A stretch of 64,000 bases of DNA from Marinobacter sp. (GTDB lineage: Bacteria; Pseudomonadota; Gammaproteobacteria; Pseudomonadales; Oleiphilaceae), in assembly GCF_014859525.1 (NCBI RefSeq), contig NZ_JACUUB010000004.1, positions 1 through 64,000 on the forward strand, in the 5' to 3' direction. Positions 55,887 to 61,415 of this stretch are shown here, piece after piece. A model generated the notes under the pieces. It ran no database searches. It saw only the letters and a program-made list of their open reading frames with translations, and was not told where the DNA came from. The first letter of the stretch is position 1, and each line of letters starts with the position of its first letter. Position numbers and translations under genes: made by a program.

Positions 55887-56037
55887 GGTGAGCAGCTATC
55901 TCCGTGATTATCTGGTTGCAGGGAATGCAGAGAATAACAGATTCAACGCTGGTCGCATGGCTGTTTTGCGGGTGGGTGTTTACAATACGTAACAAGTAGC
56001 AAGATATTTTCCAATCGATTACCAGGGGAGTTTGTTT

Positions 56038-57291
56038 ATGGGAGGCCAGGAAAGCCTGCCGCTGCGTCGTCTGAAGGACTTCCAGCCATTGGGCCGGTTG
56101 ACCGACGATCAGCTAGTTTTGCTTGCCAGCCGGGCTGAACGCAGAACCCACGGGCCCGGACAACGAGTGATGGAACGAGGGGTACGGGATGGCCTGGATT
56201 ATTTCCTGATCGCCGGAAAAATCGAGCTGGAGTCTGTAGATGGTCGCAAAACCGTCATCGAGGCAGAGACCGAAAAAGCGGTGAACCCCATCGCTCGGCT
56301 ACAGCCCAGAATGTACGAGGTGACCGCCGTAAAGGCTTGCGAGTTTCTGGTGATTGAGCAGGAGGTTCTTAACCAGATGCTCCGGGCAGCCCCTGTGGCT
56401 CAGGTCGAGATGGCCTCTGGTGATGGCGGTGCGGATGAGAGCGAAGAGCATCACTTGCTCATGGAGTTTTACGCCGAGCTTCGGTCGAATCAGCTCAAAT
56501 TACCGAGTGTGCCTGACGTCGCCTGGAAAGTCCGGAGGGTAGTAGATCGCGAGGATTCCACCGCCATGGAAGTTGCTAACGCGGTTTCCGCCGACCCTGC
56601 GATGGCTGCGAAGCTGGTCCGCTCTTGCAACAGCCCGCTCTACCGCGGTTTTAGCGACGTACGTAACGTGCGTGAATCGGTGGTCAGGTTGGGTATGAAA
56701 ACCACCCGACAACTGGTGACGGTCTTTGCGATGCGCGAAGTGTTCAAAACCCGTCGGGCGTCTTTGCAGGCGGAAATGGAGCAATTGTGGCGGCATTCCA
56801 GAGAGGTGGCCGCCCTGTGTTGGGTATTGGCCGACCATGCCACTCGCATAGATCCGGAAGAGGCTCTGCTGGCAGGCTTGCTACACGATATCGGCATCGT
56901 CCCGGTGTTGGTGCAGGCAGAGCATCATGTCAACCTGTTCGCGGATGAGAAAAACCTGCAACATGCCATGGCGGAACTCCGCGCCGACGTGGGTTGCGCC
57001 GTGCTTGAGAACTGGGAGTTCCCGGCATCGTTTGTGCAGGCGGCCCGGCATGCCGAAGACTGGCACTATGAATGCCGGGAGTCGGCACCTCAATTGGTTG
57101 ATGTTGTGATCGTGGCGCAGTTGCATTCCATGATTGGATCCAGCCAGAATGCTGGCTTGCCCGCCTTCGATCAGGTTCCTGCCTGGCGTCGGCTGGGAGA
57201 GTTGGATCTTAACGCATCCCGAAGCCTGAATCTGTTAAGTGAGGCTCGGAGCCGGGTGGATGAGGTTCAAAAGCTCCTGTCGATCCGATGA
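56038..57291 (+). CDS. HDOD domain protein with N-terminal cyclic-nucleotide-binding-like domain
   Basis: A 417-residue signalling protein. Residues about 10-120 resemble a cyclic-nucleotide-binding barrel (LGRLTDDQLVLLASRAERR, DYFLIAGKIELES, then PRMYEVTAVKACEFLVI), but the phosphate-binding cassette lacks the usual Gly-Glu pair, so nucleotide binding is doubtful. Residues about 145-340 form an HDOD domain with LPSVPDVAWKVRRVVD, ADPAMAAKLVRSCNSPLYR and LLHDIG. I chose ATG 56038 after GGGGAG; TTG 56032 is the alternative. The role is unknown. Confidence 0.88.
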   Translation: MGGQESLPLRRLKDFQPLGRLTDDQLVLLASRAERRTHGPGQRVMERGVRDGLDYFLIAGKIELESVDGRKTVIEAETEKAVNPIARLQPRMYEVTAVKACEFLVIEQEVLNQMLRAAPVAQVEMASGDGGADESEEHHLLMEFYAELRSNQLKLPSVPDVAWKVRRVVDREDSTAMEVANAVSADPAMAAKLVRSCNSPLYRGFSDVRNVRESVVRLGMKTTRQLVTVFAMREVFKTRRASLQAEMEQLWRHSREVAALCWVLADHATRIDPEEALLAGLLHDIGIVPVLVQAEHHVNLFADEKNLQHAMAELRADVGCAVLENWEFPASFVQAARHAEDWHYECRESAPQLVDVVIVAQLHSMIGSSQNAGLPAFDQVPAWRRLGELDLNASRSLNLLSEARSRVDEVQKLLSIR

Positions 57292-57321: not shown

Positions 57322-57915
57322 GTGAATGAAACCATTATGAATGTTCCCCTGTTTCCTCTGAATTCCATTGTTTTGCCCGGGGGGCGCATTCCCCTCCAGC
57401 TGTTTGAGCCTCGGTACATCGATATGTTGTCCCGATGCATGAGGGAGGATCGTGGGTTTGTTGTCGTGCTATTGCGCGACGGCGCAGAAACGGCCAGTAA
57501 AGCCGCATTCTACGATGTCGGTACTTATGTCCGGATTATCGATTTTCAGCAACTGGATAATGGCCTGCTGGGGATCACGGTTGAAGGTGAGCGGAAGGTG
57601 TCCGTCGTGCGAAGCTGGCAGCAGGACGACGGTCTGAACCTGGGCGATGTGGAATGCTTGATTGCTGAAGCGGAAAGCGTGGTGCCAGAGCGTTACCACG
57701 AGTTGCCATCGGTGTTGCGGGCCTTGTTCCGGCATCCGGTGGTAAATGATCTGGGTATGGATGTGGACTATGAAGACGCCCGGCACGTAGGCTGGCGATT
57801 AACCGAACTGTTGCCGTTGGACAAACAGGAAAAGCAGAGGCTGGCAGAACTGCAAGATCCGCTGAAGCGACTGGACCGGCTATTAGAGCTGCTTGAGGCA
57901 CTTGAGCAGAACTAG
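57322..57915 (+). CDS. Lon N-terminal-domain (LON substrate-binding) protein
   Basis: A 197-residue protein of the LON-substrate-binding family, with the marker PLFPLNSIVLPGGRIPLQLFEPRYIDM. It has no protease or ATPase domain, so it is not Lon itself. Its function is unknown. Start GTG 57322, or ATG 57337. It ends four bases inside the convergent DedA-PAP2 gene. Confidence 0.85.
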   Translation: MNETIMNVPLFPLNSIVLPGGRIPLQLFEPRYIDMLSRCMREDRGFVVVLLRDGAETASKAAFYDVGTYVRIIDFQQLDNGLLGITVEGERKVSVVRSWQQDDGLNLGDVECLIAEAESVVPERYHELPSVLRALFRHPVVNDLGMDVDYEDARHVGWRLTELLPLDKQEKQRLAELQDPLKRLDRLLELLEALEQN

Positions 57916-59363
57916 AACAGCGGCCGACAAGCGACGCTGGCGGTATTCCATTGCATAGCCAGGTAGCCTGCTGAAAATGCCAGCCAAAGCGCGACCGCGA
58001 CCCAGGTGCAGGCGTCCGCCCAAATTGGTACGCGGTCATAGCGACTGTAACTTGCCCGTATTGCGCCGGTGATCACCAGTCCGAGTAAGAACCCGCCAAG
58101 CACGTCGGTAAACCAGTTTGTGCCCAAATAGAGCTGGCTTAGCCCGATCGGAATCAATGGTAATGACAGCAAGACGTAGGTTTGCCAGCGTTGCTTTTTG
58201 CGACTTTCACCGGCGATAAAGCTGGCGGCCATAGTCACCAGAACCGTCGCGCCTGTGGCCTGAGCGCTGGGGAAAGTGCCGGAGGTCGGGGGTTTCAGTA
58301 ATGGGCTCGGGCCCTCAAACGGCAGGCCGGTTTTCAGAAGCCAGACGCTGACCAGGCTCAGCAGGGCCGCACCGGCAATGTGCAACGCAGCGGCGTAATA
58401 ACCGCGAAAGGCAAGCACCAGGGTCGCCATAAGGGCCGCACTCAACAGAACCGGTGGATCGCCCAGTAGCGTGGCCGCCGCAGCCGGAATGTCCAGCAGG
58501 GGTTGTCGTAGTGCATCAAACCAGCTTGAGACCAGTTGATTGAATTCGTAGGTCCGGCGACTGAAGTTGACCACCTGAGTCAGAATCAGGAGCATCGCCA
58601 GCGCAGCGGCGGCCATGACGATGGAAGGCAGCGGGAACTCACCTTTGCGAGAGGGTCTTTCGTTGGTGTACAGCCGCCAGAAGCGATGGGTGGTGTCGTA
58701 CCGGGTCATGCGGGATTCCAGCCAGCGATACGGCCTGCTGCCTTCACCAACGCCAAGGCGGAACTGAAGCACCACAACATAGAGCACGACCAGAATGGCG
58801 GCGCTGACAGCTATAACCGGGTAAAAGTGAGGAGGTGGTTCGATCTCGCTGGCCAGTGCGCTGCCGATGGCATAGCCTGGCAGCACATAGACCAGCGCCC
58901 AGCCCACGGCGGAGATCAGATTGAAGCTGAGAAAACGTCGCCAGGACATGTGTAAGGCGCCGGCAATCAGCGGTATGACCGGGCGAATCGGTCCTATAAA
59001 ACGCCCGGCAATCACGCTTTTGCCGCCGTGCGCGTTGAAAAAGGTTTCCCCTCGGGTGACGAGTCCCGGGTATCGGGTGAAGGGCCAGACGGAATGCAGG
59101 CGGCCTTTGACATAGCGACCTATCGCAAAGCTTATGGCATCGCCGATCACCGCGCCCAGCCCCGCCCACAACAATGCCTCTGACAGTGGCATGCCTGACT
59201 TTCCAGCCAGAGCAGCAAACCCGAACAGCATGGCAACTCCCGGCACGATCAGGCCGGCAATGGCGATCGATTCGACCATCGCTGTGGCGAACAGTGCCAG
59301 AATCAGCCAGCCTGGATTGTCGCCTACCCAGGCAGCAGCGTCTGCTAACCAGGTTTCTGTCAT
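57912..59363 (-). CDS. DedA-PAP2 fusion with a degenerate PAP2 domain
   Basis: A 483-residue membrane protein. Residues about 1-200 form a DedA domain with the family E31, P41-G, and GRFIGPIRPVIPLIAGA (120-136); DedA proteins act as lipid or undecaprenyl-phosphate transporters. Residues about 240-440 form a PAP2 domain. Its motifs are altered: K344 with G351-P352 for RP, P365-S-A-Q368 for PSGH, and S409-Q ... N416 for SR ... H. Both catalytic His and two Arg are gone, though K344, S366 and D420 remain. The domain is unlikely to be a phosphatase. Its start overlaps the stop of the gene before it. Confidence 0.85.
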   Translation of the reverse strand: MTETWLADAAAWVGDNPGWLILALFATAMVESIAIAGLIVPGVAMLFGFAALAGKSGMPLSEALLWAGLGAVIGDAISFAIGRYVKGRLHSVWPFTRYPGLVTRGETFFNAHGGKSVIAGRFIGPIRPVIPLIAGALHMSWRRFLSFNLISAVGWALVYVLPGYAIGSALASEIEPPPHFYPVIAVSAAILVVLYVVVLQFRLGVGEGSRPYRWLESRMTRYDTTHRFWRLYTNERPSRKGEFPLPSIVMAAAALAMLLILTQVVNFSRRTYEFNQLVSSWFDALRQPLLDIPAAAATLLGDPPVLLSAALMATLVLAFRGYYAAALHIAGAALLSLVSVWLLKTGLPFEGPSPLLKPPTSGTFPSAQATGATVLVTMAASFIAGESRKKQRWQTYVLLSLPLIPIGLSQLYLGTNWFTDVLGGFLLGLVITGAIRASYSRYDRVPIWADACTWVAVALWLAFSAGYLAMQWNTASVACRPLF

Positions 59364-60358
59364 GCCTCGATAGATTCTCCCGGACTGAACCAGGCGGAAT
59401 CCATGCCGCGTTTGCGGGCTTCATGTATTGCCTGATTTGCCCGGTTGCGCAGTGAGGCCGTGCTGGTATCGCCGTTGCCGCGCGTAGTGCAGCCAAGACT
59501 GACCGACGTTCTGCCAATGCCGGGCCATTCATGTTCGCCAATGGTTCTGCGGATCCGTTCAGCAATCACGCGAACGCCCTCCTCGGGGGTGAAGGGCAGG
59601 ATCAGAAAAAATTCTGATTCGTTGAGCGTGTACAGGGTGTCGCCGGCGCGGATAACGCCGAATAAGTGCTCGGTAACCTGTCTGAACAAGCGTTGTAAGC
59701 CGGGTTTGCCATGGAGATCGCGCACTTCGTCCGCATAGTCCAGGCTGAGGTTGATCACCGACAGTGGGTGGCCGGTGGCGATCGCACGGCTGATTTCTTT
59801 CTGCAGGGTTTCATCAAGAAAGCGCGAATTGTGGGCGCCGGTCACCGGGTCGGTAATGGCCAGATCTTCGGCTGACTGGGCGATGTTGTCGTAGTGCCAA
59901 ATGTAGAGCGCAACCACCACCAGCAGCAGGATAAGGCCTGCGGAGACGATCAGCGCGGTTGCACCCGGAGTTGTAATCCAGACCTTGCCAACCACCGGAA
60001 TCAACAGCAGCGCGGAAAGTCCGAGCCCCCGTCGTAAAGGCAAGATCAGCAAGTTAAGAGCCAGTAATGGCATGGCCCAGTGAATAACGCCCGGGCTGTC
60101 CAGAGCAAGAATGGCCGCGACCAGGCCGCTGTTCAGGCCGGCAAGAATCAGGAGGTGACCCGACGCTGACAATTGCTGGCGGCGGCATACCAGGGTGTAT
60201 ATCAGACCAGAAAGCAGCAGGCCGGTCATCACCAGAGCCAGATAGAACAGCTCATAGAAGCCATAGCGAAGGTTTTGTAGTGCCAGCGTAAAGATGAAAA
60301 TGGCGGTCAGGCCGTATCCGAAGCTGTGTGTCCAGGTTCTCAAGCGTGTTTCTGTCAT
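59360..60358 (-). CDS. Membrane protein with degenerate GGDEF domain (NESEF)
   Basis: A 332-residue protein with about five membrane segments (residues 13-155) and a GGDEF-like domain at about 165-325. DPVTGAHNSRFLDE marks the domain start. The active-site loop reads NESEF (246-250) in place of GGDEF, and the first metal Asp of the DxDxFK region is replaced by Ser205. It is therefore not expected to make c-di-GMP and may bind a nucleotide or act as a scaffold. It overlaps its neighbours by four bases on each side. ATG 60409 would overlap the previous gene more, so I chose 60358. Confidence 0.85.
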   Translation of the reverse strand: MTETRLRTWTHSFGYGLTAIFIFTLALQNLRYGFYELFYLALVMTGLLLSGLIYTLVCRRQQLSASGHLLILAGLNSGLVAAILALDSPGVIHWAMPLLALNLLILPLRRGLGLSALLLIPVVGKVWITTPGATALIVSAGLILLLVVVALYIWHYDNIAQSAEDLAITDPVTGAHNSRFLDETLQKEISRAIATGHPLSVINLSLDYADEVRDLHGKPGLQRLFRQVTEHLFGVIRAGDTLYTLNESEFFLILPFTPEEGVRVIAERIRRTIGEHEWPGIGRTSVSLGCTTRGNGDTSTASLRNRANQAIHEARKRGMDSAWFSPGESIEA

Positions 60359-61371
60359 GACGACCTGTCCTGCCGGCCTGCGGAATGTTGTACATCCGAA
60401 TGTACCCAATTGCTGTAAGCCTGGGTGCGGTTACCACCTTGCTGCTGTGCACGCCGGAGCGCATTGGCTGCGCTTTGCTGCAGACTGTCTGCATCGTCGC
60501 CGATATTCAGGCCGGAAATGCCGGTGCTGACGGTCAGTTTCATGCCGTGAGACTCCAGCAGTTTGCAAAGGCCGATGCGTATTGTCTCGGCACTCATGGC
60601 GGCCCCCGACGTGTTAATGCCGGGGAGGATAACCAGGAATTGAAGGTCGGCAACTCGATAATAGGTGTCAAAGTCCCGGAGCTGAGAATGCAGATAACGG
60701 CCAATCCTTGGCAAAATGGCACGAATGTCTTCGTCGGGGTCGTTGTCACTGAGGTGAGTGTCGAGGCCAATCATCATTACCGACATGTCAGTGCCTTCGC
60801 GTTCGCTGCGCTGAATTTCTTTGTGCAGGTCGGCAGACAGGTATTCCCGGCTGGCGGCCTGGGTGAGTTCGTCGGTGCGTCGCAACGGCGCCAGTTGTCG
60901 GGTTTTGTAATCACGCAGAAAGATCAGCAATGCCGAGAGCAGGGTGGTCAGCACAAACGCGCTGATCATCTGATGGCGGTCAGGAAGCACAACCGCCCAT
61001 TGGGTGCTGATCAAAATGGCAAACGTCAACAGAACCGTGGTTAGCGCCGCCACATGGGTGGGCATCAGGGCGAAGGTGATCAGCGGTAATGCATAGAGCC
61101 AGTGGCTGAGAGCCCAGGGACCAACCCACAGAGCGGTCAGCAGTGCCAGGGTCAGGATAACAAAGCAGGCGATTCTCAAGCGACGCCAGAGCAGCGGGTG
61201 GGGTTTGTTGCTGTTAGCCTTGGTTGCGAGGCTGATGCCGGCAGCGGCTGCCGCACTAACGGCTGCCAGTGGCTCTCCCAGTAACAGGCAAAGCGCGCTG
61301 GTAATTGCCAGGATAATAAAGCCGGCCCGTGCGAGCCTGCCTGGCAAGAATTTTTCAGCCGACTGGGGCAT
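60355..61371 (-). CDS. Membrane protein with degenerate GGDEF domain (ADLQF)
   Basis: A 338-residue relative of the next gene, first in the operon. Residues about 15-155 hold around six hydrophobic segments, then a GGDEF-like domain at about 165-315 starting RTDELTQAASREYL. The signature loop is ADLQF (241-245), with all catalytic Gly and Asp-Glu lost, and the metal region reads IGLDTHLSDND. It is thus predicted to be non-catalytic. ATG 61371 has AAGGA seven bases upstream; ATG 61398 would add nine residues. The stop overlaps the start of the next gene as ATGA. Confidence 0.85.
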   Translation of the reverse strand: MPQSAEKFLPGRLARAGFIILAITSALCLLLGEPLAAVSAAAAAGISLATKANSNKPHPLLWRRLRIACFVILTLALLTALWVGPWALSHWLYALPLITFALMPTHVAALTTVLLTFAILISTQWAVVLPDRHQMISAFVLTTLLSALLIFLRDYKTRQLAPLRRTDELTQAASREYLSADLHKEIQRSEREGTDMSVMMIGLDTHLSDNDPDEDIRAILPRIGRYLHSQLRDFDTYYRVADLQFLVILPGINTSGAAMSAETIRIGLCKLLESHGMKLTVSTGISGLNIGDDADSLQQSAANALRRAQQQGGNRTQAYSNWVHSDVQHSAGRQDRSS

Positions 61372-61415
61372 GTTTCTATCCTTTGCTGACGCATCCATTT
61401 GAATCTGTGCAGCGC

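Follow-up and report, generated by a model that had tools for sequence, protein, structure and literature searches.

Why would three adjacent membrane-protein genes keep open reading frames when the signaling or lipid domains that they encode lack their catalytic residues? The question is raised by a 64,000-nucleotide stretch of Marinobacter sp. DNA (NZ_JACUUB010000004.1, positions 1 to 64,000; here called the window), in which three minus-strand genes, G1, G2 and G3, lie divergent from proA and convergent with a gene for a LON-substrate-domain protein. The G1/G2 and G2/G3 junctions both overlap as ATGA. G1 (60355..61371) encodes 338 amino acids, or 347 if translation starts at an in-frame ATG upstream at 61398, and G2 (59360..60358) encodes 332; each product is a six-helix membrane protein with a degenerate GGDEF domain (PF00990; E 5.7e-17 for G1 and 1.2e-19 for G2). 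The product of G3 (57912..59363; 483 amino acids) is a fusion of a DedA (VTT) domain with a PAP2 domain (PF09335, E 1.5e-16; PF01569, E 1.4e-8). A preliminary description of the locus had placed this cluster, its overlaps and its altered residues correctly and had proposed a complex of three jointly inactive domains. Our own reading, which we favor tentatively and put slightly below an even prospect, is that G1 and G2 are paralogous dead-cyclase membrane receptors of cyclic di-GMP (c-di-GMP), probably acting as a heteropair, and that they regulate the DedA-PAP2 protein encoded with them.

G1 and G2 lack the catalytic motif and keep the I-site motif

We aligned 154 G1, 155 G2 and 159 G3 homologs, the window's own included. 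Pfam matches and alignment place ADLQF of G1 (60637..60651, minus strand, as are all features given below) and NESEF of G2 (59609..59623) at the position of the catalytic-site (A-site) motif GG[DE]EF, as first described. GG[DE]EF occurs in none of the 154 G1 homologs and in none of the 153 readable G2 homologs, two others being gapped at the motif. The expectation that the altered letters would themselves be conserved held for G1, in which ADLQF recurs in 121/154 homologs, and failed for G2, in which they are diverse (NDSEF, EDGEF, GDGRF, SQSTL, and many more). At the column of the metal-binding Asp (PleD D327), G1 has Gly and G2 has Ser. Tolerated forms of the motif may begin with G, S or A ([GSA]G[DE]EF; PMC3974145); no G1 or G2 motif reads this way, and neither protein has the residues of an active diguanylate cyclase. 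An intact cyclase with a tolerated motif variant is therefore ruled out. Because no G1 or readable G2 homolog has GG[DE]EF, the loss appears to be old, most simply dating from before the family diversified. Sequence decay of G1 and G2, which the preliminary description had thought unlikely, is ruled out by open frames and strong conservation; it does not explain these genes because both the gene order and the loss of the GGDEF motif persist across the genus and outside it.

That description missed a second feature: both GGDEF-like domains keep an RxxD motif five residues ahead of the lost GGDEF position. In diguanylate cyclases, RxxD binds c-di-GMP and forms the primary I-site. The motif is R232-D-F-D235 in G1 (60667..60678), with R-x-[FY]-D in 154/154 homologs, and R237-A-G-D240 in G2 (59639..59650), with R-[AST]-G-D in 152/152 readable homologs (the unreadable ones being L153 and L198, with gaps, and L037, which is truncated). 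In 44-sequence alignments whose most distant members share 19% (G1) and 18% (G2) identity with the window, R232/D235 and R237/D240 are still invariant, and G239 of G2 is invariant as well. Among 33 sequences from outside the genus, the R and D of RxxD belong to the 7 (G1) and 11 (G2) invariant columns of the domain, whereas columns 1 to 4 of the former GGDEF motif have entropies of 2.1 to 3.2 bits (2.4 to 3.1 bits in G1) against domain means of 1.92 (G1) and 1.84 (G2) bits.

Further arginines are conserved in helix alpha1. G1 has R188 and R191 (60799..60810; R191 invariant and R188 conserved in at least 90% of the 44 sequences) at or near the secondary I-site arginine, and G2 has R191 (59786..59788; invariant in the 44-sequence alignment) at the secondary I-site position. 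Their positions come from alignment to cyclases of the same genome and, for G2, to WspR. By PleD and WspR numbering, we take them to be probable members of the secondary I-site, G2 R191 presumably corresponding to PleD R313. G2 R268 (59555..59557; at least 90% conserved in the 44-sequence alignment) lies 31 residues after R237, and by this spacing we take it to match PleD R390, which stands at the same distance from R359. From this pattern of conservation, we consider it probable that G1 and G2 bind c-di-GMP.

Two points weaken that case. G1 has no arginine at the PleD R390 position, and RxxD was common to begin with. As a control, we turned to the genome of the window itself, which has 37 GGDEF matches, and examined the best-scoring 30; 28 of these were readable, and G1 and G2 are among the other seven. 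RxxD was present in 21/23 readable intact GG[DE]EF domains and in 3/5 readable altered ones, L253 and L257 being without it. Because RxxD is nearly universal in the intact domains of this genome, it was probably already present in the ancestor of G1 and G2; the argument for a ligand thus rests on the invariance of RxxD while the catalytic site drifted, not on its mere presence. The 37 GGDEF-domain matches make up a large c-di-GMP signaling set for a 3.2-Mb genome; apart from G1 and G2, altered motifs occur in five of the readable ones.

The same counts bear on the proposal that the GGDEF-like domains bind no nucleotide, with RxxD being kept for folding or protein contacts and the pair acting through its membrane part. 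The ligand is one that we infer, and G2 does have further invariant residues that are not part of the I-site (for example E188, W278, Y15 and G33 in the 44-sequence alignment), as this proposal would have it. RxxD is nevertheless dispensable for the fold: published counts find it in about 44-57% of GGDEF domains, so that more than 40% are without it (PMC3974145), and so are two of the five readable altered domains in this genome. We regard the proposal as improbable. A degenerate A-site that senses another nucleotide, such as guanosine triphosphate or (p)ppGpp, is very improbable; two PDB entries (9g85 and 9g86) are by title PleD with c-di-GMP and (p)ppGpp, which speaks for the idea, but within the domain the A-site motif columns belong to the more variable ones.

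The predicted structures resemble those of c-di-GMP enzymes. AlphaFold2 models of G1 (predicted local distance difference test [pLDDT] 85.3, predicted template modeling score [pTM] 0.62) and G2 (pLDDT 88.9, pTM 0.57) show six long N-terminal helices followed by a GGDEF fold. Foldseek matched them to WspR, to PleD with c-di-GMP and to a Marinobacter diguanylate cyclase with c-di-GMP (3ign). Foldseek also matched the membrane diguanylate cyclases ImcA and SadC; these cyclases share the GGDEF fold with G1 and G2, which differ from them in lacking the GGDEF residues and the metal-binding Asp. Because the G1 and G2 profiles align almost end to end, over 320 columns (probability 100, E 2.9e-44, 19% identity), we conclude from this comparison that the two are paralogs. 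That they form a heteropair is somewhat probable.

G3 is a frequent, non-obligatory partner of the G1-G2 pair

A first comparison set, found by G3, consisted of 36 other same-genus genomes. Of these, 35 keep the order of proA followed divergently by G1, G2 and G3; in the remaining one (L037), the contig starts inside G2. The arrangement thus goes beyond chance and is not limited to one genome. Four-base overlaps were found at 32/35 G1-G2 and 30/36 G2-G3 junctions of this set, and at 79/85 G1-G2 and 74/84 G2-G3 junctions of further same-genus loci, where the script favored overlapping starts.

Family-wide, a G1-profile search gave a match in 163/163 genomes and 16/16 genera, counting any match with an E value of ≤0.001; the incomplete genomes G033, G073, G134 and G141 had only weak matches, possibly to other GGDEF proteins. 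Six genomes (G004, G026, G096, G127, G148 and G181) have one in-frame TGA within the G1-profile match, and G1 may end earlier there. Loci were taken from 121/123 other same-genus genomes and from 26/39 family members of other genera, and profiles of G1, G2 and G3 were run on 166 loci (L031-L079 and L110-L226) plus the window. G1 was present in 154 loci, and G2 adjoins it in 154/154. G3 adjoins the pair in 146/154, 145 by script and one more (L074) through a four-base overlap at a locus where the script had used stop-to-stop frames; in L198, the pair ends at the contig edge. Since 37 of the 154 are the window or loci found by G3, the fairer set is the 117 loci found by G1 alone, among which 109 have G3, one ends at the contig edge and seven are without it. 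Two further families of the order have the pair as well, with G3 in L038 and L133, with a DedA-only protein in L134 and without G3 in L135-L138. In a class-wide G2 search, 140/185 genomes matched at an E value of ≤1e-15; among the matches listed, most covered the GGDEF domain only and so say little about the pair outside the order.

Several observations weigh against control of G3 by the pair. Seven of the 154 pairs have no adjacent G3 (L116, L117, L128 and L135-L138), and L134, counted among the 146, has only DedA. A genome-wide search of 11 genomes (those of eight pairs without full G3 and of three relatives) found no full-length G3. Conversely, DedA or DedA-PAP2 genes adjoin proA without G1 or G2 in six loci of other families (L039, L041, L042 and L045-L047; of these, L039 and L047 alone carry the complete PAP2 motifs), so that a shared position beside proA could partly account for the layout. 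These two patterns, pairs without G3 and DedA-type genes by proA without the pair, are the main counter-evidence. In addition, a promoter scan for operon definition found 0 promoter-like sites against 1.6 expected in shuffled sequences.

Because the pair persists in genomes without a detected full-length G3, G3 is a frequent but non-obligatory partner. G1 and G2 could then be a c-di-GMP receptor pair with another target, G3 being merely cotranscribed owing to their shared place beside proA. The G3-less pairs, the negative search of 11 genomes and the DedA-type genes beside proA all suit this alternative, as do gaps of about 100 to 220 bases between G2 and G3 in L113-L115 and L132. It fits less well with the four-base overlaps in most of the genus and with the presence of G3 beside 146/154 pairs, and we hold it to be rather unlikely. 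Control of G3 by G1 and G2, the step on which our preferred reading turns, is possible, though a little less likely than its opposite.

L116 and L117, from another genus of the family, have G1 and G2 with RxxD kept and G3 absent between G2 and the LON-domain gene (the gene order was read in L116). They offer a natural experiment on the role of the pair without G3. Near the cluster, window positions 56032-57291 encode a protein with cyclic-nucleotide-binding and HDOD domains, a homolog of which lies nearby in 34/36 other same-genus loci.

The PAP2 half of the window's G3 appears to have lost catalysis recently and is still constrained

The active-site motif set of PAP2 phosphatases is K..RP, PSGH and SR..H..D. 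G3 of the window has K..GP, PSAQ and SQ..N..D and so does not carry the set of an active phosphatase. By alignment of G3 homologs, motif 2 is PSAQ (58260..58271) in place of PSGH, and motif 3 is SQLYLGTNWFTD (58104..58139) in place of SRxxxxxHxxxD. Five of 11 compared positions are changed, and the window protein, already described as lacking both PAP2 histidines, is the sole readable homolog without them. The family as a whole carries the active set: K..RP, PSGH, SR, H and D are complete in 145/159 G3 homologs, close relatives included. Changes elsewhere are PSAH with His-to-Asn in M. halophilus (L202); N..GL, PSSH and SQ in L209; one altered PSGH residue each in L195, L077 and L130; SS for SR in L044; a broken G3 frame in L178; and a PAP2 part that is absent or unlike in six other-family loci (L040, L041, L042, L045, L046 and L134). 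The G3 frame is broken in two single genomes, L178 (M. similis) and L148, as the G2 frame probably is in L153; the breaks reflect either assembly error or real loss.

These counts contradict the earlier idea that three jointly inactive domains evolved together as one complex. All three domains do lack catalytic residues in the window, but the PAP2 motifs are intact in most homologs, and their loss in a few lineages contrasts with the general loss of GGDEF; the idea is now scarcely credible. Because 145/159 homologs keep the full motif set, the PAP2 loss is, on this comparison, recent and belongs to the window lineage and, in part, to M. halophilus. The window and L202 have in common the Gly-to-Ala change and the change of the nucleophile His to Asn, with the same codons, GCT and AAC. 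Because these codons are shared, the sequences fit one inactivation in a common ancestor of the window lineage and M. halophilus, with later losses in the window lineage. The G1 of L202 is 86% identical to that of the window, as are two others, and support for a clade of the two in a G1+G2 tree is only 0.33.

The inactivated PAP2 half is under purifying selection. When the window is compared with L202, the PAP2 half gives a ratio of nonsynonymous to synonymous substitution rates (dN/dS) of 0.127, at a dS of 1.10, and the DedA half gives 0.088; two pairs in which PAP2 is intact gave 0.103 and 0.086 by the same calculation. A calculation that took in the variable C-terminal tail and omitted L202 gave 0.13 to 0.15 for pairs with the window and 0.08 to 0.14 for intact pairs, showing no clear difference; in it, pairs with the more distant L142 gave 0.21 and 0.26, and dS was near saturation throughout. 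In relative-rate tests of the PAP2 half, the window had 20 to 28 changes against 9 to 16 in the comparison sequence (five comparisons), with P values that depend on the comparison (0.03, 0.04, 0.06, 0.11 and 0.27 for the window; 0.008, 0.011, 0.06, 0.32 and 0.51 for L202). The DedA half, G1 and G2 showed no consistent excess. Constraint on the PAP2 half may thus be slightly weaker, and it is clearly present, which is what would be expected of a pseudophosphatase domain and not of debris. The half appears to have been retained without catalysis, because dN/dS stays low between the window and L202, both of which lack the nucleophile. The genome also encodes a second PAP2 protein and one BacA, so loss of G3 PAP2 catalysis may be tolerable.

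The DedA half and its possible substrate

The DedA/VTT domain core (58872..59243) has three highly conserved residues inside or just outside it, all present in the window: E31 (158/158 homologs), R121 (159/159) and R127 (157/159). In undecaprenyl-phosphate (C55-P) flippases, represented by YghB, Glu39 and Asp51 lie in re-entrant helix 1 and Arg130 and Arg136 in helix 2 (PMC10127716). By motif, not by structure, G3 E31, R121 and R127 would correspond to YghB Glu39, Arg130 and Arg136. G3 thus resembles the DedA-family flippases UptA, YghB and PA4029 in its VTT domain with a conserved Glu and two Arg residues, and it differs from them in its fusion to PAP2, a domain suggested, where fused, to dephosphorylate the carrier ahead of flipping (PMC10127716). 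It also differs at the spacing of YghB Asp51, where it is without an acidic residue: position 43 is Val in 150/158 homologs. PA4011, a Pseudomonas aeruginosa fusion with the same DedA-PAP2 domain order, was unable to replace the C55-P flippase PA4029 (PMC12893004). Both findings count against a simple role for G3 in flipping C55-P, with PA4011 being likened to G3 by its domain order; the available part of that report mentions no G1/G2-type partners for PA4011 (PMC12893004).

The window's genome encodes four VTT proteins and one DUF368 protein. Of the VTT proteins, it is G3 that has a match to the DedA model PRK10847, at 66.9 bits and so far under the cut-off of 236; G3 likewise matches the NCBIfam DedA and UptA models far under their cut-offs. 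Two of the other VTT proteins have no PRK10847 match, and a 749-amino-acid one was judged by eye only. With a DUF368 protein also in the genome, G3 as the only possible C55-P flippase is ruled out. The 749-amino-acid frame (L345) joins a VTT domain to what by eye is an apparent pyridine-nucleotide-disulfide oxidoreductase.

A possible c-di-GMP switch beside a DedA-PAP2 protein

In the mechanism that we propose, each receptor would have its six N-terminal helices in the inner membrane and its GGDEF fold, which we take to be cytoplasmic, below them. The catalytic site would be dead and the I-site, formed by RxxD and the secondary arginines, kept for binding of c-di-GMP. The GGDEF-like domains of G1 and G2 would be joined by intercalated c-di-GMP that bridges their I-sites in the manner of inhibited diguanylate cyclases, and this bridging would alter the membrane part and, through it, the activity of the DedA-PAP2 protein, whose gene is presumably cotranscribed with theirs. 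G3 would handle an isoprenoid-phosphate or a phospholipid at the inner membrane. In the species of the window, the PAP2 half would later have lost catalysis and yet been retained, so that a DedA transporter joined to a pseudophosphatase would remain. A nucleotide-sensing membrane assembly that acts on a DedA protein had already been suggested in the preliminary description, and to that extent the preferred reading agrees with it.

Receptors of this general type have been described. PelD of P. aeruginosa, with membrane helices and a degenerate GGDEF domain that binds c-di-GMP through RxxD, is a precedent, and R402 is among its c-di-GMP-contacting arginines (PMC8461298). G1 and G2 resemble PelD in their N-terminal membrane helices, dead A-site and RxxD I-site, and PelD, too, is encoded with the machinery that it controls (PMC8461298). 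They differ from it in having six predicted helices in place of four and no GAF match in Pfam, in being two paralogs and in having a DedA-PAP2 protein, where PelD has a polysaccharide synthase, as the co-encoded partner. BcsE is another receptor with a degenerate GGDEF domain and an I-site to which they are akin, and PopA and CdgA are named as receptors (PMC3974145). A literature search by titles and abstract starts, which covered few subscription papers, found among the papers listed no operonic I-site pair coupled to DedA-PAP2, which is weak evidence of novelty; for degenerate GGDEF receptors it turned up those already known. I-site receptors of the PelD type being known, the comparison suggests that what is new here is the conserved operonic pair of dead-cyclase membrane proteins, usually beside DedA-PAP2.

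Whatever their target, G1 and G2 make a clean natural case in which two paralogs have lost the catalytic motif and kept the product-binding motif throughout a whole family. In two species, G3 provides a PAP2 pseudoenzyme that can be compared with intact relatives. A recent review calls for further work on whether lipid-carrier flow is subject to additional controls (PMC12826051). A bolder version of our reading, which is speculative and which we think unlikely, sees in c-di-GMP a direct gate on lipid-carrier recycling or lipid flipping: a dead-cyclase heteropair stapled by c-di-GMP would switch DedA-PAP2 and so allot limited carrier between growth and biofilm-type polysaccharides, and in some species the phosphatase half would be a pseudoenzyme that serves coupling only. 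The lipid carrier is scarce and is shared among bacterial envelope polymers; if G1 and G2 are c-di-GMP receptors that act on the DedA-PAP2 protein, they would provide a direct, testable link between c-di-GMP and that step.

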